NCBI RefSeq assembly: GCF_025791835.1
Contig: NZ_JAOXLP010000013.1
Location: 62,001 to 126,000, forward strand
From: Roseomonas xinghualingensis
GTDB lineage: Bacteria; Pseudomonadota; Alphaproteobacteria; Acetobacterales; Acetobacteraceae
DNA length: 64,000 nucleotides
Direction: 5' to 3'
This document shows positions 41,538 to 57,966 of the stretch, piece after piece (the stretch's first letter is position 1; every line of letters starts with the position of its first letter). A program made the position numbers and the translations under genes. Under the pieces are notes generated by a model, which was not told where the DNA came from, did not search any database, and saw nothing but the letters and a program-made list of their open reading frames with translations.

Positions 41538-42554
41538 ATGAATCTCGCCCGCTTCCCACGCATCCGGCTGGGCCACCTGCCTACGCCGCTGGAGCCGATG
41601 GAGAACCTGTCGAAGCATCTCGGCGGGCCGAAGCTCTGGATCAAGCGGGACGATTGCACCGGGCTTTCCACCGGCGGCAACAAGACCCGTAAGCTGGAAT
41701 ACCTGATGGCCGAGGCCCGCGCGCAGGGCGCCGACACGGTCATCACCCAGGGCGCCACCCAGTCCAACCATGCCCGCCAGACCGCGGCCGCGGCGGCGAA
41801 GCTGGGCATGGCCTGCCACATCCTCCTGGAGGACCGCACGGGCTACACGGATGCCGCCTATACCCGCTCCGCCAATGTGATGCTGGACAAGCTGCATGGC
41901 GCGCAGGTCTCCCGCCGCCCGGGCGGCGCGGACATGCAGGCGGAAATGGAGGTGCTGGCCGCGGAACTGCGGAAGTCGGGCAAGCGCCCCTATGTCATTC
42001 CCGGGGGCGGTTCCAACCCCGTAGGTGCCCTTGGCTATGTCGGCGCCGCGCTGGAGCTGGTGGCGCAGGCCGCCGAGATGGGCCTGAGGATCGACCATGT
42101 GGTCCATGCCACCGGCAGCGCCGGCACCCAGGCCGGGCTGGTCGCGGGGCTGGTGGGCCTGAACAGCGGCATTCCCGTGCTCGGCATTGGCGTGCGCGCT
42201 CCGCGCGAAAAGCAGGAGGCCAATGTCCTGGCTCTGGCGCAGCGCACCGCCGATCACCTCGGCCTGCCGAAGGACACGGTGCGCGCCGAGCATGTGCGCG
42301 CGAATTGCGACTATGTCGGCCAGGGCTACGGCATCCCGACCCAGGGTATGGCGGAGGCGGTGAAACTGCTGGCGGAGAAGGAGGGCATCCTTCTCGACCC
42401 CGTCTATTCCGGGAAGGGCATGGCCGGGTTGATCGACCTGATCGGCAAGGGGCACTTCAAGCCGGAAGAGAACGTGGTCTTCATCCACACCGGCGGCGCT
42501 GTCGGCCTCTTTGGCTATCCGGATGCCTTCGACCTGCCGGCGGATGTGGCCTGA
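41538..42554 (+). CDS. D-cysteine desulfhydrase / L-cysteate sulfo-lyase-like PLP enzyme
   Basis: Fold-type II PLP enzyme of the ACC deaminase group, 338 aa. The PLP Lys lies in [33 protein letters not shown] and the phosphate loop [14 protein letters not shown] are typical. The same scaffold gives D-cysteine desulfhydrase (DcyD), ACC deaminase and L-cysteate sulfo-lyase (CuyA); I cannot choose by eye. No sulfonate transporter is adjacent. It is flanked by the HWE kinase gene and the glycan operon, from which it appears independent. Confidence 0.85.
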
Positions 42555-42590: not shown

Positions 42591-43649
42591 TCAGGCGGGC
42601 GCTGCGATGGCCTCGGCCGTTGCGCGCGGGATGAGAGGATCCTGGCGCCCATAGATCCGGTCCAGCACCTCGGAGACTGTCACCAGCTGTTCGGCGACCG
42701 GATCGAAGCGCGTTCCGCCAGCGAGGCGCAGCGCCCAGCCGGCCGCCGCCCGCCCGCCCCATTCATCGGGCGGCACCGCCAGCGTCTCGCGCGAGGTCCC
42801 GTGGAAGCGCTCGGCCGTGAAGTCGTAGAAGGAGCCGTTCACATTGCGCAGCGCCGCGCCGCCCGAGGTGCCGTGGAAGTCGGCGGCGATCACCGCGTCG
42901 CAACCCGCATGGAGGTTCCAGGAGCAGGCGAGCCGTACCACCGCGCCGGTTTCCAGCTCGATGGTGGCAACCGCGTAGTCCTCCACCCGGTCCGTGCGCC
43001 CGGCGAGCGGCTCCCCGCCCGCGAAGAGCGAGCCCGACACCCGCGCCACCCTGGGGAAGTCCAGCGCCCAGAGGGCGAGGTCCACCAGATGCACCCCCAG
43101 GTCCATGACGCAGCCGCCGCCCGAGAGTGCTGGGTCGCGGAACCATGGCTTGTCCGGGCCATAGGCGTTGTGGAAGACGAGATCGATGGCATAGGGGCTG
43201 CCAAGTTCCCCGGCCCGGATCGCTTCCCGGATACGGCGCATGCCCTCGGTGAAGCGGTAGGAGAGGTCCACCTCCAGCAGCCGGTCCGCCGCGCGGGCGG
43301 CGGCCACCACGGCCCGCACCTCCGTCGCCGTGCGGCCCAGCGGCTTCTGGCAGAACACCGCGGCGCCCTGTGTGAGCGCCTGGATGGATTGCGCGGCATG
43401 CATCGCGCTGGGGGTGGCGATCACCACCCCATCCAGGCCGAGCGACAGCATCTCCTCCAGCGAGTCCACGAGCTTCGCGCCGGGCGCCAGCTTCTGCGCC
43501 TCGGCGGCCATCTCGGGCGAGGGATCGCAGATGGCGGCGGCCTCCGCCGCGCCGGTGGCGAGGATGGCCTGCATGCGGTGGCGGCCGATCCAGCCGACGC
43601 CGAGGAAGCCGAGGCGGGGAGGGCCCTTGCTGGAAATCACAGCCGTCAT
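42591..43649 (-). CDS. Gfo/Idh/MocA family oxidoreductase
   Basis: NAD(P)-dependent sugar or inositol dehydrogenase-like enzyme, 352 aa. Rossmann motif LGFLGVGWIGRHRM, the family motif CQKPLG (for EKP) and the catalytic His region GGGCVMDLGVHLVDLALW are seen. It overlaps the upstream dehydrogenase gene by 4 nt (ATGA) and is the last gene of the leftward glycan operon. With ino1 nearby, an inositol or sugar-nucleotide oxidation is a reasonable guess, but it is only inference. Confidence 0.9.
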   Translation of the reverse strand: MTAVISSKGPPRLGFLGVGWIGRHRMQAILATGAAEAAAICDPSPEMAAEAQKLAPGAKLVDSLEEMLSLGLDGVVIATPSAMHAAQSIQALTQGAAVFCQKPLGRTATEVRAVVAAARAADRLLEVDLSYRFTEGMRRIREAIRAGELGSPYAIDLVFHNAYGPDKPWFRDPALSGGGCVMDLGVHLVDLALWALDFPRVARVSGSLFAGGEPLAGRTDRVEDYAVATIELETGAVVRLACSWNLHAGCDAVIAADFHGTSGGAALRNVNGSFYDFTAERFHGTSRETLAVPPDEWGGRAAAGWALRLAGGTRFDPVAEQLVTVSEVLDRIYGRQDPLIPRATAEAIAAPA

Positions 43650-44632
43650 GCGAAGCGCACCACGGCCTTGAGGAAGCCATCGGGCCGGTCGCGCGTGGCA
43701 TCCAGTGCCGCGTCCAGCCGTTCCAACGGGAAGTCGTGGGTGAAGAGCGGCCGGGGATCGAAGCGGCCGGCGGTGATCGCCTCCACCGCCTCGCGGATGC
43801 CCTGCACATAGATCTTCGGATCGCGCTCATGCGCGTTGATCACGTCCAGCCCGCGCCAGTTCCAGAGCCACATGTTCACCTGGCGCGGCCCATCCTGGTG
43901 ATAGCCGGCGACGATCAGGCGCCCACGCTCACGGCACAGCTCGGCGGCGAGATCCAGCGGCCATTGCTTGCCCACGGCCTCGATCACCACGTCGCAGAAC
44001 GTGCCGCCGGTCAGTTCCTTCACCCGCTCGATGATGCCGTGGTGGTCATCCATCGGGATGGTTTCGGCCGCGCCCATGCCGCGCGCGAGGTCCAGCGAGA
44101 AGGGACGGCGGGAGATGGCGATCACCCGCGCGCCGGCCTCGGTGGCCAGCTTCGTCAGGATGGCGCCAAGGAAGCCGATGCCGATGATGGCCACCGTCTG
44201 CCCGGCCTCGATCCCGCTGCGGCGGAAGATGTTCATGGCGCAGCCCAGCGGCTCGCCAGGAAAGGGCTGATCGCTGAGCGATGCCGGCAGGCGCACGACA
44301 TTCGCCACATCGGCGATGTCGTATTCCGCATAGCCGCGATAGGTGAGGGCGGCGACACGGTCGCCCACCGCAACTCCCTCCACGCCCTCGCCCAGCGCAT
44401 CCACCGCGCCCCAGGCCTCATGGCCCAGGTCGCCAGGCTCGGTGGGGAAGCGCATCCAGTCCGGCCCGGCCCAGGGGGTGAGGTTGGAGGCGCAGACGCC
44501 GCAGCCTTCCAGGCGCAGCCGCACCTGCCCCGGCCCGGGCACCGGCCGCGCCACCTCCCACACCTCCATCTGGCCCGGCCCGGTCAGGACCGCGGCCCGC
44601 ATGCGCTCCGCAGCGGCGGGCGTCCCACTCAT
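43646..44632 (-). CDS. Medium-chain (zinc-type) dehydrogenase
   Basis: MDR-family alcohol dehydrogenase-like protein, 328 aa. GHEAWG contains the GHE motif, CGVCASN carries a possible zinc Cys, and the cofactor motif is VAIIGIGFLGAILTKLA. The structural-zinc four-cysteine loop is missing, as in sorbitol/threonine-type shorter members. ATG 44632 is preferred (AGGAAAGAG just upstream) over ATG 44647. Part of the leftward glycan operon after a 70-84 bp gap that holds a hairpin. Confidence 0.85.
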   Translation of the reverse strand: MSGTPAAAERMRAAVLTGPGQMEVWEVARPVPGPGQVRLRLEGCGVCASNLTPWAGPDWMRFPTEPGDLGHEAWGAVDALGEGVEGVAVGDRVAALTYRGYAEYDIADVANVVRLPASLSDQPFPGEPLGCAMNIFRRSGIEAGQTVAIIGIGFLGAILTKLATEAGARVIAISRRPFSLDLARGMGAAETIPMDDHHGIIERVKELTGGTFCDVVIEAVGKQWPLDLAAELCRERGRLIVAGYHQDGPRQVNMWLWNWRGLDVINAHERDPKIYVQGIREAVEAITAGRFDPRPLFTHDFPLERLDAALDATRDRPDGFLKAVVRFA

Positions 44633-44653
44633 CAGCTCTTTCCTCATACAGCC

Positions 44654-44681
44654 TCGCCGGTGGCGCGATGGCCACCGGCGA
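44654..44681. repeat. Perfect 11-bp hairpin inside the leftward operon
   Basis: TCGCCGGTGGC pairs with GCCACCGGCGA around a six-base loop, in the only sizeable gap of the leftward glycan operon. No T-tract. It may stabilise mRNA ends or cause partial termination between the GH39-like and dehydrogenase genes. Confidence 0.55.
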
Positions 44682-44716
44682 TCCGAATCAATCAGAAGCG
44701 TCCAGTCCTGGCCGGA

Positions 44717-45628
44717 TCAGGCTGCGACCACGGCTGCCTTCGCCGGGGCGTAGCGCCGGATCATGGAGGCGCAGAATTCCGCGAATTCCTCCGGCACCTG
44801 GGGCGGGCTGGTGTGGTGCGGCGCGATGCCGCGATGCTCCGGCGTGAAGCAGAAGGTGACGGTGACGTCGAAATCCGCCAGCGCCTCCATCTGCCGGTCG
44901 AACCAGTCCAGCGCATTCGGGCGGAAGCTGTCGGCCCAGGAGAGGCCGGTGCGGAGATAGGTGACGCCCAGCCGCTTCATCCAGGCCACCGCGTCATACA
45001 GGCGGTGGTCCTCGTAGTGGAACCACTGGCACAGGCCCATCTGCGGCGCGTGCTTCACGAAATGCTCCATGGAGGGCTTGGGCGATCCGTCCTCGCGCAG
45101 CAGCCCCATGTAGAAATGGCGGTAGTAGGAGGAGCCCTCGGCCTCGCGGTGGCGCGTGGTGGCGCCCCAGGCCTGCGGCAGGTCGTAGAGGCTGTACCAA
45201 TGGATGCGCGGCGCCTTGCCGATCAGCAGCTCGGCGGTGCGGTTGAGGCCCCAGACCTGCACTTCCTCCGCACCGAAGGTGGAGATACCGACTTCCGACA
45301 CCCAGATGGGCTTGTCGGTCACCGCGCGGATCTCATCGATCTTCGCCGGCCACTCATCGATCTTCCAGAGGTTCCAGTCGAGCGGGAAGCCGTGCACGGC
45401 CACCACATCCACCTCGTCCAGCACGCCGCGCTCGGACATGTTCACGATGAAGGCCGGATCGATCGGGGAGATGCCGCCCAGCACGCGCGGCAGGTCCGGA
45501 TTCGCTTCGCGGATCGCGCGGCCGGCCAGCTTCGCGGTCTCGGCGAACATGGCCCAGCCGGGATCGATCTCAGGGTCCCAATGGGACTTGTTGTTGGGCT
45601 CGTTCCAGATCATCGCGGCTTCGATCAC
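44717..45628 (-). CDS. GH39/beta-xylosidase-like TIM-barrel protein
   Basis: 303 aa, no signal peptide. The first residues after the start, AAMIWNEPNNKSHWDPEID, carry the clan GH-A acid/base Asn-Glu-Pro; a nucleophile candidate is the Glu of PIWVSEVGISTFG. An N-terminal strand normally before NEP is missing, so the barrel is unusually truncated at its start. GTG 45628 overlaps the methyltransferase stop (GTGA); ATG 45613 is the alternative. Located between glycosyltransferase-pathway genes, with a UDP-xylose synthase homologue in the opposite operon. It may be non-catalytic. Confidence 0.75.
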   Translation of the reverse strand: MIEAAMIWNEPNNKSHWDPEIDPGWAMFAETAKLAGRAIREANPDLPRVLGGISPIDPAFIVNMSERGVLDEVDVVAVHGFPLDWNLWKIDEWPAKIDEIRAVTDKPIWVSEVGISTFGAEEVQVWGLNRTAELLIGKAPRIHWYSLYDLPQAWGATTRHREAEGSSYYRHFYMGLLREDGSPKPSMEHFVKHAPQMGLCQWFHYEDHRLYDAVAWMKRLGVTYLRTGLSWADSFRPNALDWFDRQMEALADFDVTVTFCFTPEHRGIAPHHTSPPQVPEEFAEFCASMIRRYAPAKAAVVAA

Positions 45629-46395
45629 GCGCGCTTCTCCTTCGCGGGATAGGCGGCGCCGGCGCCCCAGGGGGCTTCCACGCGCCGGCAGAGATACACC
45701 TCCTGTTCGGGGTGCTCGATGATGGCGAAACCGGCCGAGCGGAGCATCGCCTCCGCGCAGGCGGCATTCGGCACCCACCAATTGGTCAGGTCGCCGGTGT
45801 AGCGGTGTTCCACGAAATGCATCTTCGGGAATCCGGGGCGGTTGAAGACTTCCGTTTCCTCGAAGGAGTAGTCCGCCGCCACCGGCTCGATCTCGCGTGA
45901 ACCGCGCTGCATGGACTGAAACAGCAGGAGGTCCTTGGCGGCATGCTCATGGATCAGGTCCAGCGCCAGCAAGGGGTGGCGCAGATGATAGAGCACGCCC
46001 ATGAAGATCACGAGGTCGAAGCGCTCGCCCAGCGCCGCCACGTCATAGACGGAGAGGTTGCGGAACTCCGCCTCCAGCCCCGTGACCTCGGCGGCCAGCC
46101 GCGCCTGGGACAGGTAGCGGTCATCCGAATCGATGCCCAGCACGCGAGAGGCGCCGCGCCGCTTCATCTCCAGCGAGTAGAAGCCGGCATTGCAGCCGAT
46201 ATCGAGCACCGTCTTGCCGGTCAGGTCCTGCGGGACCGCATGGGCGAAGCGCTGGAACTTGTTCGCTGGGTAGTCATAGAGAAAGTGATTCGGCGCGGTC
46301 TTCACCCCGCCCAGGTCGAGATTATGGAACCAGTCGCCGAGGGCCTCGACCCGCTTCCGGATCTCATCCTTCGACAGCATCACGGTCTGGCTCAT
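45625..46395 (-). CDS. SAM-dependent methyltransferase, CmoB-like (DUF1698; Rta_06860-type)
   Basis: 256 aa. Class I methyltransferase motif I is VLDIGCNAGFYSLEMKRRGA, with VLGIDSDDRYL as motif II and IFMGVLYHLRHPLLAL after motif IV. It looks like CmoB, but in a sugar-gene context rather than tRNA modification. From memory it fits the family called Rta_06860 (TIGR04290), reported in a conserved gene neighbourhood; that needs checking. Flanking 4-nt overlaps on both sides. Predicted to O-methylate a sugar or aglycone. Confidence 0.85.
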   Translation of the reverse strand: MSQTVMLSKDEIRKRVEALGDWFHNLDLGGVKTAPNHFLYDYPANKFQRFAHAVPQDLTGKTVLDIGCNAGFYSLEMKRRGASRVLGIDSDDRYLSQARLAAEVTGLEAEFRNLSVYDVAALGERFDLVIFMGVLYHLRHPLLALDLIHEHAAKDLLLFQSMQRGSREIEPVAADYSFEETEVFNRPGFPKMHFVEHRYTGDLTNWWVPNAACAEAMLRSAGFAIIEHPEQEVYLCRRVEAPWGAGAAYPAKEKRA

Positions 46396-47540
46396 CCCGC
46401 CGGTATCTCCCCTGACAGCGAATGTTGCACGGGGCCGAGCCGCCGCGCCGGCGCCGCATCCAGCCGCGCCAACACCTCCAGCAACTCGTCCACGCGATGC
46501 GCGCAGCTGTGCCGCGCGCGGATCGTCTCCAGCCCGCTTTCCACCAGCGAGCGCCGCAGCCCAGGATCGTCCCGAAGGGTAGAGAGATGGTGCGCCATCT
46601 CCACCTCGTCACGCGCCGTCAGGTAATCCTGGCCAGGACGGAACAACCCCTCGGAATCCCGCCAGGGGGCGGAGACGAGTGGGATGCCGCAGGCCAGCGC
46701 CTCGAAGACGCGGATGGTCGGGATGCCCGGCAGCATCTCCACATAGAAGCGCCGCGGCACATGCACGGTGGCAAGGTGGTGCGCGAAAAGCTCCGGCGCG
46801 CGCGCATTGGGCAGCCAGCCACGATAGCGCACGCCATAACGCTGCAGCATGGCGAGCGCCTCATCGGGGTAGCGCACGCCATAGATGTCGAGCTGCAGGC
46901 GGGTGGTCTGCGCCGGCCGCATAAGGAAGCTTTCCAGCTCCGCCGTGCGTTCGCCATCGCCCCAGTTGCCGATCCAGATCAGCCCCTCGCGCGGGCCTTC
47001 CTGCGCGGGCGGCTGAAAGAGGCGCGTATCCGCCGCCTCATGCCAGACGAAGACACGATCGCCCCATCCCCAGCCGCGATACACCTCGGCCAGGGTGGCA
47101 CCGAAGGCGAGCACCGCATCATAGCCATCCAGGTCGAAACGCCGGATCGCCTCCGGGTCGCTGACCGCGCGGTGATGCGTGTCGTGGAAGAGCAGGGTGA
47201 AGGGCGCGCCGCGCCGACGCATCCGCCCGATGGCGGCGACCAGTTCCGGCTCATTCCATTCATGCACCACCACCACATTGGCGCCGTCCAGTGCCGCCTC
47301 CACCTCCTCGAAAGAGGAGAAGACGCGGGAGTTCAGCTCGGGATAGCTGGCGCGGAAGGCATCCAGCCCCGCCTCGCCATGGTCGCGCAGCAGGTTTTCC
47401 AGGCTCCAGGCCCCCTTGGGCTCCAGGGAGAGCACCTCATGCCCGCGATGCACCAGATCCCGCAGCACGCCGCGCAGGAAATGCGCGTTGCCGTGGTTCC
47501 AGCAGGAGGTGAGCGAATGGGTGAGATAAACGAGCTTCAA
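46392..47540 (-). CDS. CgeB-like glycosyltransferase
   Basis: GT-B family protein, 382 aa. N-terminus LTHSLTSCWNHGNAHFLRGV and the C-terminal donor-site stretch PGIPTIRVFEALACGIPLVS resemble CgeB/spore-maturation-type transferases. TTG 47540 start overlaps the previous stop (TTGA) and ATGA overlaps the next gene. It is related to the two CgeB-like enzymes of the rightward operon in motif order. Donor unknown. Confidence 0.82.
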   Translation of the reverse strand: MKLVYLTHSLTSCWNHGNAHFLRGVLRDLVHRGHEVLSLEPKGAWSLENLLRDHGEAGLDAFRASYPELNSRVFSSFEEVEAALDGANVVVVHEWNEPELVAAIGRMRRRGAPFTLLFHDTHHRAVSDPEAIRRFDLDGYDAVLAFGATLAEVYRGWGWGDRVFVWHEAADTRLFQPPAQEGPREGLIWIGNWGDGERTAELESFLMRPAQTTRLQLDIYGVRYPDEALAMLQRYGVRYRGWLPNARAPELFAHHLATVHVPRRFYVEMLPGIPTIRVFEALACGIPLVSAPWRDSEGLFRPGQDYLTARDEVEMAHHLSTLRDDPGLRRSLVESGLETIRARHSCAHRVDELLEVLARLDAAPARRLGPVQHSLSGEIPAG

Positions 47541-48664
47541 GCGGCGGCAGTCCCCGTCAGCAGCAATGAGCGGTGCACCGCATGCATGGCTTCCGCCATC
47601 GCGCCCACGGTGTAGCGCGCCGCCCTCTCGCGCCCCGCGGCGGCCAGGCGCGAGCGCTCCCCGGCATCCCCCGCCAGGCGCCCGATGGCCTCCGCGGCAG
47701 CTGCGTCATCCCGCGCCGGCACGAAGAGGGCGGCGTCGCCCCATAATTCCCGGAAGGTCGGGATGTCGGACAGCACCAGCGGACAGCCTGCCTGCGCGGC
47801 TTCGAGGACGGCAAGGCCAAAGGGTTCATAGAGGGCCAGCGACACATAGATCGGCGCCTGGGCGAGCCAGCCGGCCAGCGTGCCCTCATCCAGCCACCCC
47901 AGGGCGCGCAGATACCGCGCCTCCACCAGCGTTCCATCCGGCCCATCCAGCGGCCCGGCGGCCAGCACAGGCAGATCCAGCCGCGCCGCCGCGCGATCAA
48001 GCGTTTCGAGGTTCTTCCCGGCATCCCATAGCCGCCCGGCGGTGAAGGCGAAGAGTGGTGGCGCCTTGTCCGGCACGCCGGATGGCGGGGGCAGGGGGGC
48101 ACGCCCGTTATGAACCACGCGCGGCAGGCGCGGCAGCGCATAGCGGCGCGCCATCGCCTCGGCCAGTGCATGGCTGGGCACCACCAGCGCTGAAGCGGCC
48201 AGGGCACCGCGGCGGACGAGTTCCGTGCGCCAGGAAAAATCCTCGGGCAGATCTCCGTCGCGCACCGCATCCCACCAGGTGGCGACGCAGGAGTGGGAGA
48301 CGGCAACGATCGGAACCGGAAAACCCGCACCTGCCGCATGGGCCGGGCTGTTGAGCTGGACGATGTCCACCCCCGCCTCCCGTGCCAGGGCGGCGAGCGC
48401 GACACCGGCCTGCGTCACCTCCCCTGGCTCATTCGCCAGCCAATCCAGCGGCAGGCCGGTGATCCGAAGCTCAAGCCCCGGAATCCCGGCGGCCTGTGTC
48501 ATCTGGTCCGGTGTCGGCGCCGGGCCGAGCACCGCCAGCACCGTCACCACGCCATGGAGGGCAAGCCCCGCCGCCAGATCCAGCGCATAGGTCCAGACAC
48601 CGCCGGCCGCATCAGCCGTCATCAGCAACCGAGTGGCGGGAACCCTCTGCGGATCGGCTGTCAC
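47537..48664 (-). CDS. GT4-family glycosyltransferase
   Basis: GT-B retaining transferase, 375 aa. Acceptor loop TADAAGGVWTYALDLAAGLA, a central FTAGRLWDAGKNLETLDRAA, and the donor motif LYEPFGLAVLEAAQAGCPLVL (E-x7-E) match GT4. GTG 48664 overlaps the upstream stop by 4 nt, and TTGA couples it to the next gene; the frame's upstream ATG lies inside the epimerase gene. Probably builds a glycosidic bond using one of the deoxysugar or pentose nucleotides made by neighbouring enzymes. Confidence 0.9.
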   Translation of the reverse strand: MTADPQRVPATRLLMTADAAGGVWTYALDLAAGLALHGVVTVLAVLGPAPTPDQMTQAAGIPGLELRITGLPLDWLANEPGEVTQAGVALAALAREAGVDIVQLNSPAHAAGAGFPVPIVAVSHSCVATWWDAVRDGDLPEDFSWRTELVRRGALAASALVVPSHALAEAMARRYALPRLPRVVHNGRAPLPPPSGVPDKAPPLFAFTAGRLWDAGKNLETLDRAAARLDLPVLAAGPLDGPDGTLVEARYLRALGWLDEGTLAGWLAQAPIYVSLALYEPFGLAVLEAAQAGCPLVLSDIPTFRELWGDAALFVPARDDAAAAEAIGRLAGDAGERSRLAAAGRERAARYTVGAMAEAMHAVHRSLLLTGTAAA

Positions 48665-49764
48665 GCGTTGGCCAGTGGCACCGGTGCGTGGAGCACCTCC
48701 GGGCCGGCGCGCTCCTGCCGCAGCCATTGCGCGAGGGCTACGACGCCTTCACGCCATGGCCGTGCCGTACGCAGCCCCAGTTCCTGTGCCGCGCGGCTTG
48801 TATCCGAGACGTAGTAGCGTTGGTCGCCCGCCCGCCAATCGGCGTAGTGTGTCTCTACCGGCTGATTCGTCAGATCTCCGATATGATCGAGCAGCTGGCG
48901 CAGGCTGATCGCATTGGCTGGCCCGCCGCCGAGATTGAAGGCGCGCCCGGAGACGGCATCGATCCTCCGCCAGGCCGCGAGATAGGCTTCCACCGCATCG
49001 CCCACATCCATCACGTCCCGCACCTGACAGCCATCGCCATAGATGCTGACCGGCTCGCCCCGCAGGGCACTGAGGACAAAATGCGCCACCCAGCCCTGAT
49101 CCTCGGTGCCCATCTGCCGCTGACCGTAGATACAGCTCATTCGCAGCACGGCTGTTGGCAGGCCGAAAGAGCGGCCGAAATCGAGCACATACTGGTCGGC
49201 AGCGCCCTTGGAGCAGCCATAGGGCGTGTGGAAGTCGAGCGGCCGGTCCTCCCCGATGCCGCGTGCGCGGATCGCCGGATCGCACGGCACATAGGCATCG
49301 CCTTCCAGCTCCAGCGCGACATCCGCCAGATCGCCATAAACCTTGTTGGTGCTGGCGAAGATCAGCGGCACCCGGTCACCCCGCCGGCGCAACGCGTCGA
49401 GCAGGTTGAAGCTGGCGCCGAGATTGATCTCGAAGTCCTCACGAGGATCGGCCATGCTGGTCGTGACCGCGACCTGCGCTGCCAGATGGAAGACCGCGCT
49501 TGCCTCGGAGGCGGCCGCCACCAGGGAACCGGCTTCCCGCACATCGGCAACCACGGCCGAGATCCGCTCCGGATGCCGGCGCTTCAGCCAGTCCAGATTC
49601 GACTTCACGCCCGGCCGCAGCAATGCGTCATAGATGAGGACGTCATGTCCTTCCGCGGCGAGCCGGTCCGCCAGATTGGAGCCGATGAAGCCGGCGCCGC
49701 CCGTGACCAGGATCGGCTGCCGCCCCGTGACGGCCGGAGCGGACGGTGCCGCCTTGTTCGTCAC
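48661..49764 (-). CDS. NAD-dependent nucleotide-sugar epimerase (CDP-paratose 2-epimerase-like)
   Basis: Extended SDR, 367 aa. GGAGFIGSNLADRLAAEGHD, HLAAQVAVTTSM, the catalytic Tyr/Lys in TPYGCSKGAADQYVLDF and VYGDL after FASTNK match the paratose/tyvelose epimerase group. GTG start overlapping the preceding gene by GTGA. Natural substrate not certain. The operon contains a second epimerase, suggesting two nucleotide sugars. Confidence 0.88.
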   Translation of the reverse strand: MTNKAAPSAPAVTGRQPILVTGGAGFIGSNLADRLAAEGHDVLIYDALLRPGVKSNLDWLKRRHPERISAVVADVREAGSLVAAASEASAVFHLAAQVAVTTSMADPREDFEINLGASFNLLDALRRRGDRVPLIFASTNKVYGDLADVALELEGDAYVPCDPAIRARGIGEDRPLDFHTPYGCSKGAADQYVLDFGRSFGLPTAVLRMSCIYGQRQMGTEDQGWVAHFVLSALRGEPVSIYGDGCQVRDVMDVGDAVEAYLAAWRRIDAVSGRAFNLGGGPANAISLRQLLDHIGDLTNQPVETHYADWRAGDQRYYVSDTSRAAQELGLRTARPWREGVVALAQWLRQERAGPEVLHAPVPLANA

Positions 49765-50876
49765 GCGACGAGTCCCCGCAGTTCAAGCTCGCTCCGCGCC
49801 TGGCTGACGCGGTCCTGTGCCTGCTGGCGTGCCACCCACTCCGCCAGTTCCGCGAGATCGGCCCGGAAATCGAGATGGCGTGTTTCGTAGCCCAACTCCT
49901 GCCGCGCCTTGGTGATGTCCGGGATATTATGGCGAATGTCGCCAGCGCGGGTCTTGCCGGCGATCTCCGGCGCAAGGCCGGTGCGCCCCATGGCACTGGC
50001 CAGTTCGGCCGCCACCTCCTGCACCGTGCGGTCGATGCCGCTGGCGATATTGTACACCCCGCCTGGCGCCTTCGGATGATCGAGTGCAAGGAGGAAGGCA
50101 CGTGCCACATCCTCAACGTGCACAAAGTCGCGCCGCTGCAATCCATCCTCGAAGATCATCGGCGGTTGCCCGTTCTGCAACCGCGCCGCGAAGATCGCGA
50201 GAACGCCCGTATAGGGATTCGAGAGTGCCTGCCCCGCCCCATAGACATTCCACAACCGCAGCGCCACGCCCTCCATTCCATAGGCCGGCGCAACGGTGAG
50301 GGTCAGGCGCTCCTGCGTGAACTTCGTGATGGCATAGACGGAGGCAAGATTCGTCCGCTTCCACTCCGGCGTCGGAACCGGCACCAGCGGTCGGCCCTTT
50401 GCATCCAGCGGATCCCAGGGCGCATCCGGCCCGCTGCGGGGCAGGCGCACCGCATCCTCGACGAGATTGCCGTCAGCGTCCTTGTACAGGCCCTCGCCAT
50501 AGACGCTCATGGAGGAGGCAACGACCACGCGCTTCACCGGCTGTTCGATCAGTTGCTGGAACAGCATCGCCGTGCCGCAGTCATTCACCGCGACATACCG
50601 GTCGATCGCATACATGCTCTGCCCGACGCCAACCTCGGCGGCCAGATGAACCACCTTGTCGATGCCCTTCAGGGCACGGCGCACGGCATCGGCATCGCGG
50701 ACATCGCCCCGCATAACCTCGACTTCGGAGTCGAGGCCATCGGCGCCACGGTCGGCATGCACCTGCTCGATAAAGCTGTCGAGCACGCGCACATGATCGC
50801 CGCGGTCGAGCAAGGCGCGCGACACATAGCGCCCGATGAAGCCGGCTCCGCCGGTGATCAGGATCGATTCCGCCAA
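49761..50876 (-). CDS. dTDP-L-rhamnose 4-epimerase-like NAD-dependent epimerase
   Basis: Extended SDR, 371 aa. SILITGGAGFIGRYVSRALL, HLAAEVGVGQSM, VYAITKFTQERL (YxxxK) and the segment GQALSNPYTGVLAIFAARLQ plus FEDGLQRRDFVHVEDVA are closest to my memory of dTDP-L-rhamnose 4-epimerase, which makes dTDP-6-deoxy-L-talose. TTG 50876 has GGAGG 8 nt upstream and is better supported than the ATG 21 codons earlier. First gene of the leftward eight-gene operon. No rmlABCD genes are present nearby. Confidence 0.85.
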   Translation of the reverse strand: MAESILITGGAGFIGRYVSRALLDRGDHVRVLDSFIEQVHADRGADGLDSEVEVMRGDVRDADAVRRALKGIDKVVHLAAEVGVGQSMYAIDRYVAVNDCGTAMLFQQLIEQPVKRVVVASSMSVYGEGLYKDADGNLVEDAVRLPRSGPDAPWDPLDAKGRPLVPVPTPEWKRTNLASVYAITKFTQERLTLTVAPAYGMEGVALRLWNVYGAGQALSNPYTGVLAIFAARLQNGQPPMIFEDGLQRRDFVHVEDVARAFLLALDHPKAPGGVYNIASGIDRTVQEVAAELASAMGRTGLAPEIAGKTRAGDIRHNIPDITKARQELGYETRHLDFRADLAELAEWVARQQAQDRVSQARSELELRGLVA

Positions 50877-51250
50877 ACGCTTGCCCTCCAGCTCATGCCG
50901 AGCCCGACGCCGTCCGGAAAAGACCGAGAGCGCCCGCATTCACCACCAGGGTGAAGGAAGGCGCGTCTTTTGTCATTTCCGTCCGCCGTTGAGTCACGCC
51001 ATTTCTTAGCCGTGTCAGCATGTTTGAAGAAGAGTGGAGACGACATCACATTTACTTGTAACTAAACCATTATGGCATGCTGCATCCTATCGCTGCATTG
51101 AACGCTTGCACCGCGGGCAGCTAAGTTGATGCGGCTCTGGCGGATTGCCGGACCGGGGGGCAGGAACCATTCTCACTTGATGATCGATCCGCGCTGCGAC
51201 CTTACCCGTTTTTCATTTTCCGCGCCCCGGCGGTTGGAAAGCGCCCGCTC
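50877..51250. promoter_or_regulatory. Divergent promoter region of the two glycan operons
   Basis: 374 bp with no gene. Its middle, about 50990-51090, is clearly AT-richer than surroundings (CATTTACTTGTAACTAAACC, CATTATGGCATGC). I expect divergent promoters here but cannot place confident -35/-10 elements, and see no strong operator palindrome. Confidence 0.5.
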
Positions 51251-52330
51251 GTGAATCAGAGAACGGTCCGCGTTGCTGTCGTCGGTGTAGGAAACTGTGC
51301 TTCTTCCTTCGTGCAAGGGCTCGCCTATTACCGTGATGCCGCGGCGAATGAGCCGGTTCCGGGGCTGATGAATGTCGAGCTTGGTGGCTACCATGTGCGC
51401 GACATCGAGGTGTCTGCGGCCTTCGATGTGAATGCCGCCAAGGTAGGGCGCGACCTTGCGGATGCCATTCTGGCGCCGCCGAACAATACCCACCAATTCG
51501 CCCAGGTCGCTCCCACCGGCGTCAAAGTGGAGCGGGGCGCGACACTGGATGGAATCGGGCGCTACATGGCCGCCGAGATCCCCGAATCGGATGCCCCCGT
51601 CGCCGATGTCGCTGGCATCCTGGAGTGGTCGCGTACCGATGTGGTCGTCTCCTACCTGCCGGTAGGATCCCAGCGGGCAACGGAATGGTACGCCGAGCAG
51701 GCGCTGAAGGCGGGATGCGCCTTCGTGAACTGCATCCCTGTCTTCATTGCCTCCAATCCTGAATGGCGGAAGCGCTTCGAGGCGCGTGGCCTGCCGATCA
51801 TCGGGGACGACATCAAGAGCCAGGTCGGCGCCACCATCGTGCATCGCGTGCTGGCCAACCTGTTCCGTGAGCGTGGTGTGCGGCTGGACCGTACCTACCA
51901 GCTGAACTTCGGCGGCAATGCCGACTTCCTGAACATGCTGGAACGCGAACGCCTCGAATCGAAGAAGATCTCCAAGACCCAGGCAGTGACGAGCCAGCTT
52001 GAGATCCCCCTGCCGGCGCAGGATGTGCATGTTGGCCCCAGCGACCATGTGCCCTGGCTGACCGATCGCAAATGGGCACAGATCCGGCTGGAGGGTACCG
52101 GCTTTGGCGGAATGCCGCTGAATATCGAACTGAAGCTGGAGGTATGGGATTCGCCCAACTCCGCCGGCATCGTCATCGATGCTGTGCGATGCGCGAAGCT
52201 CGGCCTCGATCGTGGCATCGGCGGCGCACTGTTCGGGCCGTCCAGCTATTTCATGAAGTCACCGCCGCAGCAGTTCCAGGATGGCGAGGCCAGGGAGCGT
52301 ACATTGCGTTTCGTGGCCGGTGAGAGTTGA
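51251..52330 (+). CDS. ino1: Inositol-3-phosphate synthase (MIPS)
   Basis: Converts glucose 6-phosphate to 1D-myo-inositol 3-phosphate with NAD, 359 aa. It has the N-terminal [66 protein letters not shown] and [13 protein letters not shown], all characteristic of the actinobacterial/short MIPS form. GTG start 51251; no ATG nearby. First gene of the rightward operon. Inositol synthesis is uncommon in alphaproteobacteria, and its position suggests dedication to this pathway rather than general use. Confidence 0.94.
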
Positions 52331-52339
52331 GGTGGGCCG

Positions 52340-52939
52340 GTGGCCACCACCTTCTTCCTGGTGCGCCATGCCGCGCATGATCGTGTGGGCAGCGTGCTCT
52401 GCGGCCGGATGCCAGCAGTGAATCTCGGTGAACTCGGCCGGCGCCAGGCCGATGCCCTTGCGGATCGCTTGGGGGGGGAACGGATCAGCGCGATCTATAC
52501 GAGCCCACTGGAACGCGCGAGGGAGACCGCCGCACCCATTGCCCAGAGGATCGGACTTCATCCGCAGGCCAGTGATCCGATCACCGAGATCGATTTCGGC
52601 AGATGGACGGGGCGCTCCTTCGATTCGCTCGGCTCTGATCCGGATTGGACCCGCTGGAATGAATCGCGCTCCACCGCACGTCCGCCAGGTGGGGAAAGCA
52701 TGGGCGAGGTGCAGTCCCGCGTGACCGGGGAATTGAGCCGCCTGCAACAGGATCATCCGGAGGGCCGCATCGTGCTCGTCAGCCACTGTGATGTGATCAA
52801 GGCGGCGCTGGCTTCCCATCTTAGGTTATCGCTTAACGATCTCGGCCGGTTTGAAATCGCTCCCGCATCCGTGAGCATCCTGGTTGCTTGGGGCAGCGAA
52901 GGGAAAGTCCTGGGCATGAACGAGGCGGTTGCGTCATGA
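52340..52939 (+). CDS. Histidine phosphatase family protein
   Basis: 199 aa, phosphoglycerate-mutase-like fold. Catalytic FLVRHAAHDRVG (RHxxH position, with the second His shifted), the Glu region TEIDFGRWTGRSF and VLVSHCDVIKAAL (second catalytic His) are present. GTG 52340, 9 bp after ino1. Next to ino1, it probably dephosphorylates inositol phosphate or a pathway phosphate; inference. It overlaps the next gene by 4 nt. Confidence 0.88.
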   Translation: MATTFFLVRHAAHDRVGSVLCGRMPAVNLGELGRRQADALADRLGGERISAIYTSPLERARETAAPIAQRIGLHPQASDPITEIDFGRWTGRSFDSLGSDPDWTRWNESRSTARPPGGESMGEVQSRVTGELSRLQQDHPEGRIVLVSHCDVIKAALASHLRLSLNDLGRFEIAPASVSILVAWGSEGKVLGMNEAVAS

Positions 52940-54033
52940 GGATCGCCTTCTACGGATCAAGCCTGCTCTCCTCCTACTGGAATGGTGCCGCCACTTATTA
53001 TCGTGGCCTCCTGCGCGATCTCGCCGCGCGTGGCCATTCCATCATTTTCTATGAACCGGACGCCTTTGATCGTCAGCAGCATCGCGACATCGAGCCGCCG
53101 CCCTGGGCCGAGGTGCGCGTTTATCCTGCAACGGAAGAAGCTGTCCGTGAGGTGATCGCCGAGGCGGTCCGTGCCGATGTGGTGGTGAAGGCAAGCGGCG
53201 TCGGCGTGTTTGACGACGTGCTGATCGAGGGGCTCATCGCCGCCGCGCGCCCCGATGCCATCCGTATCTTCTGGGATGTGGATGCGCCCGCCACCCTCGC
53301 GGAGATCGGCGACGCGCCGGACCATGCGCTACGCCGGGCTCTGCCCGCGTTGAATTTCGTGCTGACCTATGGCGGTGGCCCGCCGGTGGTCGATGCCTAT
53401 GAAGGACTGGGCGCACGGCGCTGTATCCCGATCTACAACGCGCTGGATCCCGAGACGCATCACCCGGTGCCGGCGGACCCGCGCTTCACGGCCGACCTCT
53501 CCTTCCTCGCCAACCGCCTGCCGGATCGCGAGACGCGGGTGGAACGCTTCTTCCTGGACGCCGCCGCGCGCCTGCCGGAACGCCGTTTCCTGCTCGGAGG
53601 CAATGGCTGGGACGACAAGCCGATGCCGTCCAATGTGCAGCGAATCGGCCATGTCGGCACGCGCGACCACAACGCCTTCAACACCTCGTCGCTGGCGGTG
53701 CTGAACATCGCGCGCGACAGCATGGCCTCCACCGGTTATTCGCCCGCGACACGCGTCTTCGAGGCGGCGGGCGCCGGCGCCTGCCTGATCACCGATGCTT
53801 GGGTCGGGCTCGACCTCTTCCTGAAGGAGGACGAAGAGGTGCTGGTCGCGCGGGACGGCGCCGAGGTGGCGGCGCATCTGCAAAGCCTTACGCCCGCGCG
53901 TGCCAGGGCCATTGGTGAGGCCGCTCGCGCTCGCATCCTCTCCGAACACACCTATACACGTCGTGGAGCGGAGGTGGACGCACTGCTTCGCCGGGAAGCG
54001 GCGCGCATACGCGAAGGGGGCGTCCCGGCGTGA
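52936..54033 (+). CDS. CgeB-like glycosyltransferase A
   Basis: GT-B protein, 365 aa. MRIAFYGSSLLSSYWNGAAT opens it; IRIFWDVDAPATLAEI and the donor-site region GYSPATRVFEAAGAGACLIT match the CgeB family. ATG 52936 overlaps the phosphatase stop. It resembles the next gene in the same parts, suggesting an old duplication. Donor and acceptor unknown; inositol as acceptor is possible. Confidence 0.85.
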   Translation: MRIAFYGSSLLSSYWNGAATYYRGLLRDLAARGHSIIFYEPDAFDRQQHRDIEPPPWAEVRVYPATEEAVREVIAEAVRADVVVKASGVGVFDDVLIEGLIAAARPDAIRIFWDVDAPATLAEIGDAPDHALRRALPALNFVLTYGGGPPVVDAYEGLGARRCIPIYNALDPETHHPVPADPRFTADLSFLANRLPDRETRVERFFLDAAARLPERRFLLGGNGWDDKPMPSNVQRIGHVGTRDHNAFNTSSLAVLNIARDSMASTGYSPATRVFEAAGAGACLITDAWVGLDLFLKEDEEVLVARDGAEVAAHLQSLTPARARAIGEAARARILSEHTYTRRGAEVDALLRREAARIREGGVPA

Positions 54034-55154
54034 TGGCGGGCGCACCGCTCCGCATCGTCGTACTCGGACTCAGCCTTTCCTCCTCCTGGGGGAATGGGCA
54101 CGCAACGACCTTCCGCGCCCTGCTGCGTTCCTTCGCCGAACGAGGTCATGATGTCCTCTTCCTGGAGCGCGACGTACCCTGGTATGCGCAGAACCGGGAC
54201 ATGCCCTCACCGGATTTCTGCCGGCTAGAGTTCTACCCCGATCTGGCGGCGCTCGAATCCTGGCGCGATGCCATGGCGCAGGCGGATGCGGTGATCGTTG
54301 GCTCCTATGTGCCGGAAGGCGTGGCTGTCGGCCGCATGGTGCAGGAGACCGCAGGTGGCGTGACCGCCTTCTACGACATCGACACGCCCGTGACCCTGGC
54401 CAAGCTGGAACGCGGCGACGAGGAGTATCTCTCCCCCGCGCTGATCCCAGGCTATGACCTTTATCTCTCCTTCACGGGCGGCCCGACGCTCGAACGGCTG
54501 GAACGGCAATACGGATCGCCGGCCGCGCGGCAACTCTATTGCTCCGTGGACGCAAAGGCCTATCGCCCGCTTGATCTGCCGCCGCGCTGGGATCTGAGCT
54601 ATCTCGGCACCTACAGTCCCGATCGCCAGCCCACTCTGGAGCGCCTGCTGCTGGAACCAGCACGGCGTGCGCCGGAGTTGTGCTTCGCTGTCGCCGGGCC
54701 GCAATACCCGGCCGATATCGAATGGCCTGCCAATGTCGAGCGGATCGAGCATGTGCCGCCCGCCGATCATCCTGCCTTTTACGCGCAGAGCCGTTTCACA
54801 CTGAACGTCACGCGCGCCGACATGATTCGCGCGGGCTACAGCCCCAGTGTGCGGCTGTTCGAGGCGGGCGCCTGCGGCGTGCCGATCATCTCCGACAAGT
54901 GGGACGGAATTGACACACTGCTCCATCCCGATGCGGAGATCATCCTCGCGGATAATGCCGAAGCGGTGCTCCGCGCGTTAACCGACATGCCCGAGGCGCG
55001 GCGACGCGAGATGGGGCGGGTACTGCGCGAACGCGTCCTGGGCGAGCACACCGCGGCTCACCGGGCCGAGGAACTGGAAGGATACTTCCGCAAGGTCCTG
55101 GCCAGGCGCGCGGCGGCGCTCGACCAACCCGCGGATGAACAGGTGACCTCGTGA
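54030..55154 (+). CDS. CgeB-like glycosyltransferase B
   Basis: 374 aa, paralogous to the preceding gene: LGLSLSSSWGNGHATTFRAL at the N-terminus, TAFYDIDTPVTLAKLE in the middle and AGYSPSVRLFEAGACGVPII near the C-terminus. The DxDxP-type stretch (FYDIDTP here, FWDVDAP in the neighbour) is shared. GTG 54030 overlaps the upstream stop; its own stop overlaps the next start (GTGA). Two sequential transfers are suggested. Confidence 0.85.
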   Translation: MMAGAPLRIVVLGLSLSSSWGNGHATTFRALLRSFAERGHDVLFLERDVPWYAQNRDMPSPDFCRLEFYPDLAALESWRDAMAQADAVIVGSYVPEGVAVGRMVQETAGGVTAFYDIDTPVTLAKLERGDEEYLSPALIPGYDLYLSFTGGPTLERLERQYGSPAARQLYCSVDAKAYRPLDLPPRWDLSYLGTYSPDRQPTLERLLLEPARRAPELCFAVAGPQYPADIEWPANVERIEHVPPADHPAFYAQSRFTLNVTRADMIRAGYSPSVRLFEAGACGVPIISDKWDGIDTLLHPDAEIILADNAEAVLRALTDMPEARRREMGRVLRERVLGEHTAAHRAEELEGYFRKVLARRAAALDQPADEQVTS

Positions 55155-56176
55155 GGAACGGCAAGACCAAGCTCGTCATGGTCGTCGGCGGTGCCGGCTT
55201 CCTCGGTTCCCATCTCTGCGATCTGCTCATCAGTGAAGGCAAGCAGGTCATCTGCGTCGACAACTTCCAGACGGGGCAGCGCGACAATCTGCGGCACCTG
55301 CAGCGCGATCCCCGCTTCGACATGATTGAGGCCGATATTGCCGAGCCGCTCCCGGCTTCGCTTTCCTCCGAGCGCCTGCATTTCAGCGAGATCTACAATA
55401 TGGCCTGTGCCGCCTCGCCGCGGCATTACCAGGCCGATCCCGAGCACACGATGCTCACCTGCGTTCTCGGCACGCGCTCGCTTTTGCGGCTGGCCGAGGC
55501 GAATGGCGCGCGCTTCCTCCAGGCCTCCACCAGTGAGATCTATGGCGATCCGGAGACGCATCCGCAGCGAGAAGACTATTGGGGCCATGTAAACCCGACT
55601 GGGCCGCGCGCCTGCTATGACGAAGGCAAGCGCGCCGCTGAGACTCTTGCCTTTGACTTCATCCGAGCCGGACGCGCGGAGGTGCGCGTGGCACGTATCT
55701 TCAACACCTATGGCCCGCGCATGTGCGCCGATGATGGCCGCGTCGTTTCCAACGTCATCTGCCAGGCGCTGGCGAGCGAGGACATCACCATCTATGGCGA
55801 TGGCAGCCAGACCCGTTCCTTCTGCTATGTCGATGATCTGGTGGATGGCCTCGCACGGCTGATGGCCTGCGGGACTGAGCCGCCGGGCGCGGTGAATCTG
55901 GGAAATCCGGTGGAACTGACGGTGCTCGATCTCGCGGAACGCGTGCTGACCCTCACCGGTTCCCGGTCGCGCATCGTGCACCGCCCTCTGCCGGTGGATG
56001 ATCCCCGCCGCCGCCGCCCTGATATCTCCCGCGCGAAGGCTCTGCTCGGCTGGGTGCCGCGCGTGTCGCTTCAGGCCGGGTTGGAGGCGACGGTCGCCTG
56101 GTTCCGGCGCGAGATGGCCCATCCGGTGCTGCCGACGCAGCCTGCGCTGCCAGCCACCGCCAGCCGCGCCGACTGA
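55151..56176 (+). CDS. UDP-glucuronate decarboxylase-like (UDP-xylose synthase) SDR
   Basis: Probable UXS making UDP-xylose from UDP-glucuronate, 341 aa. GGAGFLGSHLCDLLISEGK, IYNMACAASPRHYQADPEHT, the diagnostic STSEIYGDPETHPQREDYWG then HVNPTGPRACYDEGKRAAET (catalytic Tyr/Lys), and RIFNTYGPRM are nearly those of bacterial UXS enzymes. GTG 55151 overlaps the upstream stop. It gives a pentose donor for the CgeB-like transferases, and fits the beta-xylosidase-like protein of the leftward operon. Confidence 0.88.
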   Translation: MRNGKTKLVMVVGGAGFLGSHLCDLLISEGKQVICVDNFQTGQRDNLRHLQRDPRFDMIEADIAEPLPASLSSERLHFSEIYNMACAASPRHYQADPEHTMLTCVLGTRSLLRLAEANGARFLQASTSEIYGDPETHPQREDYWGHVNPTGPRACYDEGKRAAETLAFDFIRAGRAEVRVARIFNTYGPRMCADDGRVVSNVICQALASEDITIYGDGSQTRSFCYVDDLVDGLARLMACGTEPPGAVNLGNPVELTVLDLAERVLTLTGSRSRIVHRPLPVDDPRRRRPDISRAKALLGWVPRVSLQAGLEATVAWFRREMAHPVLPTQPALPATASRAD

Positions 56177-56211
56177 GGCGCCAAGAGCCGCACCTCATCC
56201 GGGGCTCCGCA

Positions 56212-57966
56212 ATGCTGGTCTATGGCGATGCCCCACGCCGCGAGGATCCGCGCCGCAAGCTTGCGGAGCTTGCCAATGCACTCCGCGAACTCGCCAGCCT
56301 GCCGCCTGGAATCTGTCGCCATTCCGCCCTGGCTGCCGCGCTGATCGAGGCTGGGGAACTCGCGCAGGGCATCGCGGATGCTGATTTCGCCGAACGGGGC
56401 GTGGATGATTTGGCACCGGCACCGGAAGCGGCCATGGCGCTGCTGGTGCGGATCGCGGAGGCGCTGTGCCTCTCCTGGAATACCGGCTTCACCCAGCTGG
56501 GCGCCTGGCCCGAGGCCGAGTGGGCCGCCTTGGCCACCACGCCACTGCCCGGTTCCATTCGGACCAAGCGGGCGGAGGGCTTTGCCTATTACGCCCTCTA
56601 TCCCGAGGTCTATGCGATGGCGGCGGCTTCCCTGCCATCTGGCGTGCCGCTGCGGGTGATCGGCCTTCGCTCCATCGGGGTGACGCTGGCGGCGATGGTG
56701 GCCGCCCGGCTTGGCGGAGCGCCACCCCGCAGCCTGCGCCCGGTGGGTCATCCCTTCCGGCGCAAGCTGGCGGTGTCGGACGCCTTGGCTGCGGATCTCC
56801 TCGCCGGTCCCGAAGCGCATTTCGCGGTGGTGGATGAAGGGCCCGGCCTGTCCGGCAGCAGCTTTGGCGCCGTGATCGAGTTCCTGGAAGGGCGCGGGGT
56901 GCCGCTGTCGCGGATCCATCTTCTTCCTGGCCATGGGGACGAGCCTGGATCGCAGGCCAGTCCGGAATTGCGTGCGCGCTGGGCGCAGGCGCAACGCCAT
57001 TCCGCCTCCTTCGAGGACCTCCTCCTCCATGCCGTGCGGCCGGAACACCGGCTGGAAAGTTGGGCGGCGGATTTGCTGGGGGCGCCGGACAGGCCGCTGG
57101 AGGACATTTCGGGTGGCGCCTGGCGTCGGTTGCGCAGCGCGGAGGTGCCCTGGCCACCCATCCATCCCTTCATGGAGCGCCGGAAGTTCCTGTTTCATCG
57201 GGGCGGCACGGCCTGGCTGCTCAAATTCGCGGGGCTTGGCCACCGTGGCGAGAAGCAGGCGGAGCATGCCCGATTGCTTCACGCGGCCGGCTTCACGCCG
57301 GAGGTCGCGGGCTTCCGGCACGGCTTCCTGATTGAGCGCTGGATGGAGGAGGCGCGTCCCCTCGATCCGGCCCGGTATGATCGGAGCCGGCTGATCGCGC
57401 ATCTGGGCCGCTATCTCGCATTCCGGGCGCGCAGCTTGCCGGCGGGGCCGGAAGGTGGCGCCTCGGCAGAGGCACTTTGGGAAATGGCCCGCCACAACAC
57501 CGCCCAGGCATTGGGCCAGGAACTGGCGGCACGGATGGACCGGTGGAAGCCCTCCCTTCCGTCCTTCGACGCGCAGATCCGGTGGGTCTGGACCGACAAC
57601 CGCCTGCATGCCTGGGAATGGCTGGTGCTTCCCGATGGCCGTCTGCTCAAGACAGATGCGGTGGACCATGCGGCCGCGCATGACCTGATCGGCTGCCAGG
57701 ACATCGCCTGGGATGTGGCGGGAGCGGTGGTGGAACTTGGCCTGTCCTCCGCCGAGCAGGACCGGCTGGGCCATATCATCGGACAGGAGAGCGGCCGGGC
57801 CGTGGATCCGGAACTCCTGGCCTTCCTTACGCCCTGCTACCTGGCGTTCCAGCTTGGCTATCACGCCATGGCTGCGGATGCGTCTGGTGGTGAGGAGGTA
57901 GCGCGGGCGGGCGATGCCGCCGCCCGTTATGCCGAAGCCCTGAAAGCCGCGCTGCTGGCCGGCTGA
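56212..57966 (+). CDS. Phosphoribosyltransferase-like / aminoglycoside-kinase-like fusion protein
   Basis: 584 aa, no family name known to me. Residues about 140-270 look like a type I PRTase: LRVIGLRSIGVTLAAMVAAR, then FAVVDEGPGLSGSSFGAVIE in the place of the PRPP-binding loop (first Asp near residue 208). Residues about 320-580 look like an APH/choline-kinase fold: TAWLLKFAGLGHRGEKQAEH, the hinge LIERWMEEARP, a catalytic-loop candidate WVWTDNRLHAWEWL and KTDAVDHAAAHDLIGCQDIA for the metal Asp. The HGD motif of true APHs is changed to TDN, so activity is uncertain. It lies 35 bp after the UXS gene, last in the rightward operon. Confidence 0.75.
   Translation: MLVYGDAPRREDPRRKLAELANALRELASLPPGICRHSALAAALIEAGELAQGIADADFAERGVDDLAPAPEAAMALLVRIAEALCLSWNTGFTQLGAWPEAEWAALATTPLPGSIRTKRAEGFAYYALYPEVYAMAAASLPSGVPLRVIGLRSIGVTLAAMVAARLGGAPPRSLRPVGHPFRRKLAVSDALAADLLAGPEAHFAVVDEGPGLSGSSFGAVIEFLEGRGVPLSRIHLLPGHGDEPGSQASPELRARWAQAQRHSASFEDLLLHAVRPEHRLESWAADLLGAPDRPLEDISGGAWRRLRSAEVPWPPIHPFMERRKFLFHRGGTAWLLKFAGLGHRGEKQAEHARLLHAAGFTPEVAGFRHGFLIERWMEEARPLDPARYDRSRLIAHLGRYLAFRARSLPAGPEGGASAEALWEMARHNTAQALGQELAARMDRWKPSLPSFDAQIRWVWTDNRLHAWEWLVLPDGRLLKTDAVDHAAAHDLIGCQDIAWDVAGAVVELGLSSAEQDRLGHIIGQESGRAVDPELLAFLTPCYLAFQLGYHAMAADASGGEEVARAGDAAARYAEALKAALLAG

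Follow-up and report, generated by a model that had tools for sequence, protein, structure and literature searches.

A fourteen-gene locus of Roseomonas xinghualingensis with a circularly permuted glycosidase-like protein may encode a pathway for a methylated, xylose-containing oligosaccharide

What is made by two runs of sugar-handling genes that diverge from one spacer, and when is it made? The question is raised by a 64,000-nucleotide stretch of the Roseomonas xinghualingensis genome (contig NZ_JAOXLP010000013.1, positions 62,001 to 126,000; hereafter the window), in which ORF calling, Pfam and NCBIfam delimit eight genes on the minus strand (42591-50939; GFO, ADH, GHA, MT, CgeB1, GT4, SDR2 and SDR1) and six on the plus strand (51251-57966; INO1, HPP, CgeB2, CgeB3, UXS and PRK). 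That these fourteen genes form a single pathway is well supported. With slightly less than even confidence, we read it as a dedicated pathway for a methylated, xylose-containing cytoplasmic hetero-oligosaccharide, probably built on inositol or another cyclitol, probably induced by the sigma factor EcfG in many Alphaproteobacteria, and spread partly by plasmids. Gene clusters for glycan biosynthesis are a known kind; it is the signature enzyme of this one, GHA, that is structurally unusual.

The enzyme families indicate the chemistry. By its sequence matches, UXS (55151..56176, plus strand) is a UDP-glucuronate decarboxylase that would supply UDP-xylose, matching the PDB sequence 4gll (UDP-glucuronic acid decarboxylase 1) at E 1.8e-102, with the nearest row outside this enzyme at 5.9e-37. 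SDR2 (48661..49764, minus) resembles CDP-tyvelose 2-epimerase, its closest solved relative (9rl0, E 2.5e-76; 1orr, E 7.7e-70; next row, 1.2e-34), and its substrate is assigned by this likeness. SDR1 (49761..50939, minus; PF01370) is predicted to be a sugar-nucleotide epimerase of the 4-epimerase type, with 6wjb, MoeE5 (6kv9) and UDP-glucose 4-epimerase as PDB relatives. Four glycosyltransferases accompany them: the CgeB-like proteins CgeB1 (46392..47540, minus), CgeB2 (52936..54033, plus) and CgeB3 (54030..55154, plus), all with PF13524, and the family 4-type GT4 (47537..48664, minus; PF13439, PF13692). Taken with UXS and the two epimerases, the four transferases suggest a xylose-containing heteroglycan. 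INO1 (51251..52330, plus; PF01658), an inositol-3-phosphate synthase, and the histidine phosphatase HPP (52340..52939, plus; PF00300) point to inositol, and the S-adenosylmethionine (SAM) methyltransferase MT (45625..46395, minus) to methylation of the product. MT is a member of the already catalogued family TIGR04290 (386.1 bits, curated cut-off 300) and is 91% identical to a Roseomonas harenae methyltransferase. An earlier note on this DNA had described it as CmoB-like; it is a methyltransferase, related to CmoB only distantly (73 of 275 bits). The Gfo/Idh/MocA oxidoreductase GFO (42591..43649, minus; PF01408, PF22725) and the zinc-type alcohol dehydrogenase ADH (43646..44647, minus; PF00107, PF08240) belong to broad families and are weakly like inositol dehydrogenases, the best NCBIfam match of GFO being IolG at 104 bits, under the cut-off of 355. 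The gene calls of that note for ino1, the phosphatase, the decarboxylase, both epimerases, both dehydrogenases and the four glycosyltransferases thus hold, while the deoxysugar that it placed in the product has no direct support.

GHA (44717..45628, minus; 303 aa) is the most distinctive member of the set. Its sequence, a rotation scan and an AlphaFold model together identify its predicted fold as a clan GH-A barrel with a natural circular permutation: the chain begins at strand beta4, and the two catalytic glutamates, Glu10 and Glu112, are retained. The model (pLDDT 90, pTM 0.89) has eight strands in a predicted (beta/alpha)8 barrel and is matched to TIM barrels by VIA-align. For comparison we used PslG, the GH39 endoglycosidase of Pseudomonas aeruginosa, which is not the top row by Z and was chosen for its lower rmsd, higher identity and matched range. 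Glu10, which follows strand 4-7, and Glu112, which sits on strand 108-113, align with PslG Glu165 and Glu276 and are invariant in 30/30 GHA sequences. GHA therefore has the acid/base glutamate in an NEP motif and the nucleophile glutamate three strands later, as in clan GH-A. The canonical order from beta1 to beta8 is not kept: two segments of GHA correspond to PslG segments that stand in the opposite order, and in the rotation scan a cut at residues 186-216 scored best (148, versus 110 for the native order). Native GHA does not match PF01229, and the reordered sequence reaches 11.4 of the 26 bits of the gathering score. The GH39-like label given to this protein earlier is therefore right as to the predicted clan GH-A fold and both glutamates, but not as to strand order or the PF01229 score. 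Besides its permuted order, GHA differs from PslG in having other gene partners and no signal peptide that we could see.

We considered whether GHA might be a truncated or mis-started gene and rejected this, since its start mostly overlaps or closely follows MT and its N-terminus recurs across phyla; in the window the start is the GTG at 45628 rather than that of a longer TTG ORF. Identity to the window protein is at least 63% in 29 relatives from several phyla. The family comprises at least 8000 proteins, most of which Pfam and NCBIfam miss; a few just reach PF11790. The permutation may explain why so many are missed. A literature search, from whose coverage the subscription literature was mostly absent, found no paper on a permuted GH-A enzyme or on this cluster. 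Being conserved across phyla, a permuted GH-A barrel would offer those who study fold permutation an example from nature.

The set is an old unit that recurs in other genomes. A scan of genome contigs with the methyltransferase matched 114 stretches, 86 of which encode a relative, and the best 80 loci were used. These span Roseomonas, Azospirillum, Skermanella, Alsobacter, many Sphingomonadales, Paracoccus and Ramlibacter, as well as two myxobacteria, five Acidobacteria, one Gemmatimonadetes bin and two Verrucomicrobia. Near MT we found (tblastn > 70 bits) GHA in 74 loci, SDR2 in 64, SDR1 in 62, CgeB1, CgeB2 and CgeB3 in 61 each, GT4 in 59, UXS in 58, HPP in 55, GFO in 52, ADH in 49, INO1 in 46 and PRK in 16; many loci are cut at the 10 kb flanks, SDR and UXS queries may cross-hit, and related loci inflate all counts. 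Gene order and orientation vary: GHA usually lies directly behind MT, and in Sinorhizobium-type loci the two stand at opposite ends. The gene-neighbourhood comparison that the earlier note had proposed thus reveals a set that recurs, reshuffled, over several phyla, indicating that the fourteen-gene unit is more than chance.

Co-presence supports the same conclusion. Among 120 genomes of the window's family, GHA occurs in 21 and CgeB1 in 25, and all 21 GHA genomes fall within the 25 (Fisher 9e-20, uncorrected for relatedness). Scattering of the genes in relatives, which the earlier note had named as a sign against one pathway, is partly observed, in that the glycosyltransferase block lies elsewhere in 13 genomes picked because they have few cluster genes near MT; yet a CgeB1 relative is present in every one of the 13 (as a 105-residue partial match in one), and SDR1, SDR2, GT4, CgeB1 and CgeB2 lie together in 10/10 fetched regions of such split genomes. 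One split block (L097) carries a second GHA copy, the same genome having another beside MT (L039); in a further split block (L098) GHA lies apart from the MT locus of that genome (L029), at which no GHA was seen. As for transfer, Paracoccus rows fall inside Sphingomonadales in the methyltransferase tree (fork support 95/82), which fits horizontal movement, and GHA is found in 97 plasmid records (66 Sinorhizobium, 10 Roseomonas, others). All fourteen genes are present on pSymB of S. meliloti 1021 (NC_003078.1, about 242.5-257.9 kb). On a plasmid of Bradyrhizobium sp. 195 typed as conjugative (L106), a phosphopentomutase gene (over cut-off) follows GHA, TIGR04295 lies inside the cluster and treZ adjoins it. 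In an Ensifer adhaerens plasmid (L107), the end of the cluster that holds MT has an Hsp20 gene close by, and DUF1003 lies at the opposite end.

When is the product made? In Alphaproteobacteria the general stress response contributes to survival under drying, salt and heat. We searched for the EcfG-type promoter motif GGAAC-N16/17-NGTT in the relatives. A Sphingomonadales set of 48 loci was drawn by record title; it includes a locus titled Microvirga sp. SRT01 (L046), which the tree places next to Sphingomonas Leaf343 with a branch length of zero and which is probably mislabelled. In this set the 200 nt upstream of MT contain the motif in 24/47 loci and those upstream of SDR1 in 21/37, versus 0.9% of random windows from the same loci, and 31/38 loci with both genes have it at one or both heads. 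It is found before none of the INO1 (0/25), UXS (0/19) or ADH (0/34) genes (0/78 together). For SDR1, hits in 15/37 loci are on the reverse strand; SDR1 there diverges from HPP across a common spacer, so some of these hits come from the motif of the opposite operon. Among split sets, the motif lies within 300 nt of the SDR1 block in 5/8 sphingomonads and in neither of two non-sphingomonad regions. In nine rhizobial plasmid loci, several of them close relatives, the motif lies within 300 nt of INO1 in 9/9, ADH in 7/7, SDR1 in 5/8 and PRK in 1/8, versus 3.9% of random windows that themselves include the motifs. The 16-nt inner sequences of the nine INO1 sites are only 41% alike on average, indicating that the boxes themselves are kept and not just the region. 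The cluster motif agrees with the EcfG motif GGAAC-N17-20-GTT of S. melonis Fr1, as given in the accessible text of PMC6599016, and the accessible text of PMC6180224 gives the same motif for S. meliloti RpoE2 promoters. EcfG would probably act at these sites. We also asked whether the EcfG-dependent glycosyltransferase genes #3505-3509 or the ADH gene #2499 in the accessible text on S. melonis Fr1 (PMC6599016) are this cluster; the names misfit or are indecisive, and these genes were not used.

Taken together, the gene content suggests a route. Ino1 would form inositol-3-phosphate, from which HPP would remove the phosphate, leaving inositol as the likely acceptor. UXS, SDR1 and SDR2 would provide UDP-xylose and epimerised sugar nucleotides, the sugars would be added by GT4 and the three CgeB-like transferases, and MT would methylate the product. 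ADH and GFO may oxidise and reduce a carbon of the sugar or cyclitol, resulting in epimerisation. GHA, as a permuted retaining glycosidase, may trim or transglycosylate the product, analogous to PslG beside the Psl genes. The steps may run in this order, and the product would be soluble and perhaps protective. Tentatively, and with doubts of our own, we extend this to bacterial stress glycans of a new class, namely inositol or cyclitol oligosaccharides that are methylated, contain xylose and are encoded in at least five phyla; they would be made under general stress in Alphaproteobacteria including S. meliloti, with the permuted GH-A protein as the signature catalyst. Most RpoE2-dependent genes have no predicted function according to the accessible text of PMC6180224, and according to that of PMC6599016 some 40% of the EcfG-dependent genes lack a specific function; a conserved stress product may have escaped characterisation. 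In S. meliloti (pSymB) and Sphingomonas the cluster offers a concrete, conserved and testable pathway, with UXS, the methyltransferase and INO1 as chemical handles.

Several observations weigh against this reading. A search of the 200 nt before each of five genes finds the motif in 0/10 Roseomonas relatives and in 0/11 loci outside Alphaproteobacteria. It is missing in Alsobacter (0/2) and present in only 1/5 Azospirillaceae and 1/3 Paracoccus; the single locus of the FK1 bin has it (1/1). The plasmid cluster of Paracoccus yeei has it at 0/3 heads and once inside, before MT. In the window, the one EcfG-like site (GGAAC-N17-CGAT, 51163..51188, plus strand, 88 nt before INO1) is imperfect, with 8/9 consensus bases, and such sites also occur elsewhere, for example before SDR1 in two other loci (L003, L008); among the ten relatives only R. 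harenae shares it. The main texts on RpoE2 (PMC6180224 and PMC3616915), as far as accessible, make no mention of 'glycosyl', 'inositol' or 'SMb202' tags guessed from position. INO1 is linked in only the 46/80 loci given above, one internal stop codon interrupts 4/21 GHA matches in the family, and the neighbours described below equally fit a surface glycan. The stress role suggested earlier is supported by EcfG-type motifs in Sphingomonadales and rhizobia but not in the window's own genus, and stress control of the window cluster, given 0/10 Roseomonas relatives and a single 8/9 site, is a lead rather than a result. The window's genome does have a NepR match over cut-off. A PAS-HWE histidine kinase gene lies two genes from the cluster (39888-41441, plus); kinases of this type often feed the PhyR-EcfG stress pathway.

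Could the set instead build the glycan part of a surface glycoconjugate induced by stress (a glycolipid, capsule or lipopolysaccharide decoration), with exporters encoded elsewhere and INO1 providing only an inositol lipid anchor or decoration? We regard this as possible, though somewhat doubtful. In sphingomonads, rhizobia and Paracoccus yeei the set has neighbouring genes for a pyruvyl transferase, FrhB and DUF1003; sphingomonads also have GT9-like and DUF6165 genes next to it, and GT9-like genes lie beside it in Acidobacteria too. The B12 radical SAM protein TIGR04295, which its curators named '_oligo', joins the cluster in Azospirillum and Bradyrhizobium by profile and in Acidobacteria by clustering, and PslG, the relative of GHA, acts in the Psl exopolysaccharide operon according to the accessible text of PMC9075953. 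A sugar nucleotidyltransferase is another accessory partner in relatives. Against a surface product, Pfam and NCBIfam detect no flippase, polymerase, ABC exporter or initiating phosphoglycosyl transferase among the fourteen genes (PRK matches no family), and in a crude hydropathy scan none of the fourteen proteins shows an N-terminal signal or a clear membrane segment. This bears out, for these genes, the earlier statement that Wzx/Wzy, an ABC exporter and a Sec-anchored protein are lacking, and it separates the cluster from Wzx/Wzy or ABC-dependent capsule clusters. Nor is there a flippase, polymerase or exporter in the eight recurrent neighbour families that were profiled (DUF1003 is a membrane family), other flank genes being left unprofiled and export genes elsewhere in the genome not sought.

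The patchy distribution of the set, with TIGR04290 over its cut-off in 14/289 Alphaproteobacteria genomes and GHA in 21/120 of the family, would also suit a specialised secreted small molecule, such as a cyclitol or oligosaccharide for signalling or competition, as would the 97 plasmid records and the accessory radical SAM protein and methyltransferase. The strong conservation of GHA across phyla and the stress-type promoter motifs speak for a protectant instead, and no export gene recurs among the profiled families, so that we consider this explanation unlikely. A breakdown pathway, in which a glycoside would be degraded by the glycosidase together with the phosphatase and the enzymes resembling inositol dehydrogenases, could draw on the beta-xylosidase name that GHA carries in some sources and on the likeness of GFO and ADH noted above, but is strongly disfavoured by gene content: INO1, UXS, the four glycosyltransferases and both sugar-nucleotide epimerases all serve biosynthesis, the fourteen genes include no transporter or secreted enzyme, and we regard this explanation as highly improbable.

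Comparison with known systems places the cluster further. It shares with the TIGR04290/TIGR04295 neighbourhood, two hypothetical equivalogs of NCBIfam, the methyltransferase over the TIGR04290 cut-off and, in relatives, TIGR04295; it differs in that no radical SAM protein is among the fourteen window proteins, and the model names state no product or function. The likeness to the EcfG/RpoE2 regulon lies in the promoter motifs, which precede operon heads in Sphingomonadales and rhizobia but were not found in the Roseomonas relatives. Ino1, a GT4 enzyme and a phosphatase together recall the start of mycothiol synthesis (Ino1, MshA, phosphatase), but no cysteine ligase is among the fourteen, and we rejected a mycothiol pathway since INO1 (TIGR03450, 537 of 638 bits) and GT4 (MshA, TIGR03449, 24.5 of 462.5 bits) both fall under their cut-offs. 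Galactinol or raffinose-type and other glycosyl-inositols share with the proposed product the idea of a sugar-inositol stress compound.

The fourteen genes diverge from one spacer, as described earlier. It measures 311 bp with the first ORF starts (50940..51250), rather than the 374 bp first given, which would need a later SDR1 start, and it is AT-rich in relative terms only (GC about 55-57%, versus 67.7% for the window). Within it lies AGCTAAGTTGAT, which 9 of the 10 aligned Roseomonas relatives also have, and two further shared blocks, including CATCACATTTTCTTGT, are present as variants. We rejected AGCTAAGTTGAT as a regulon-wide site, since GCTAAGTTGATB is found once in the genome, in this spacer. 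Nearly all successive genes had been said to overlap by 4 nt. This is the case at 7/12 within-run junctions with the longest ORFs (GT4 from 48727, CgeB2 from 52888) and at 9/12 with nearer starts (GT4 at GTG 48664, CgeB2 at ATG 52936); the other three junctions are gaps, of 69 nt between GHA and ADH, 9 nt between INO1 and HPP and 35 nt between UXS and PRK. The first of these (44648..44716, minus) holds an inverted repeat, spotted by eye, that may be a terminator.

PRK (56212..57966, plus; 584 aa) has no match in Pfam, NCBIfam or the PDB sequences, and its earlier reading as a PRTase/kinase fusion was not confirmed. Among 8000 candidate relatives 3220 passed E 0.001, and its DEGPGLSG motif is invariant in 28 sequences. 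Directly adjoining the cluster, a gene at 41538-42554 (plus) matches D-cysteate sulfo-lyase CuyA (552 bits, cut-off 450). Farther away in the window, a pectate lyase domain with RTX calcium-binding repeats is encoded at 9490-11415 (plus).

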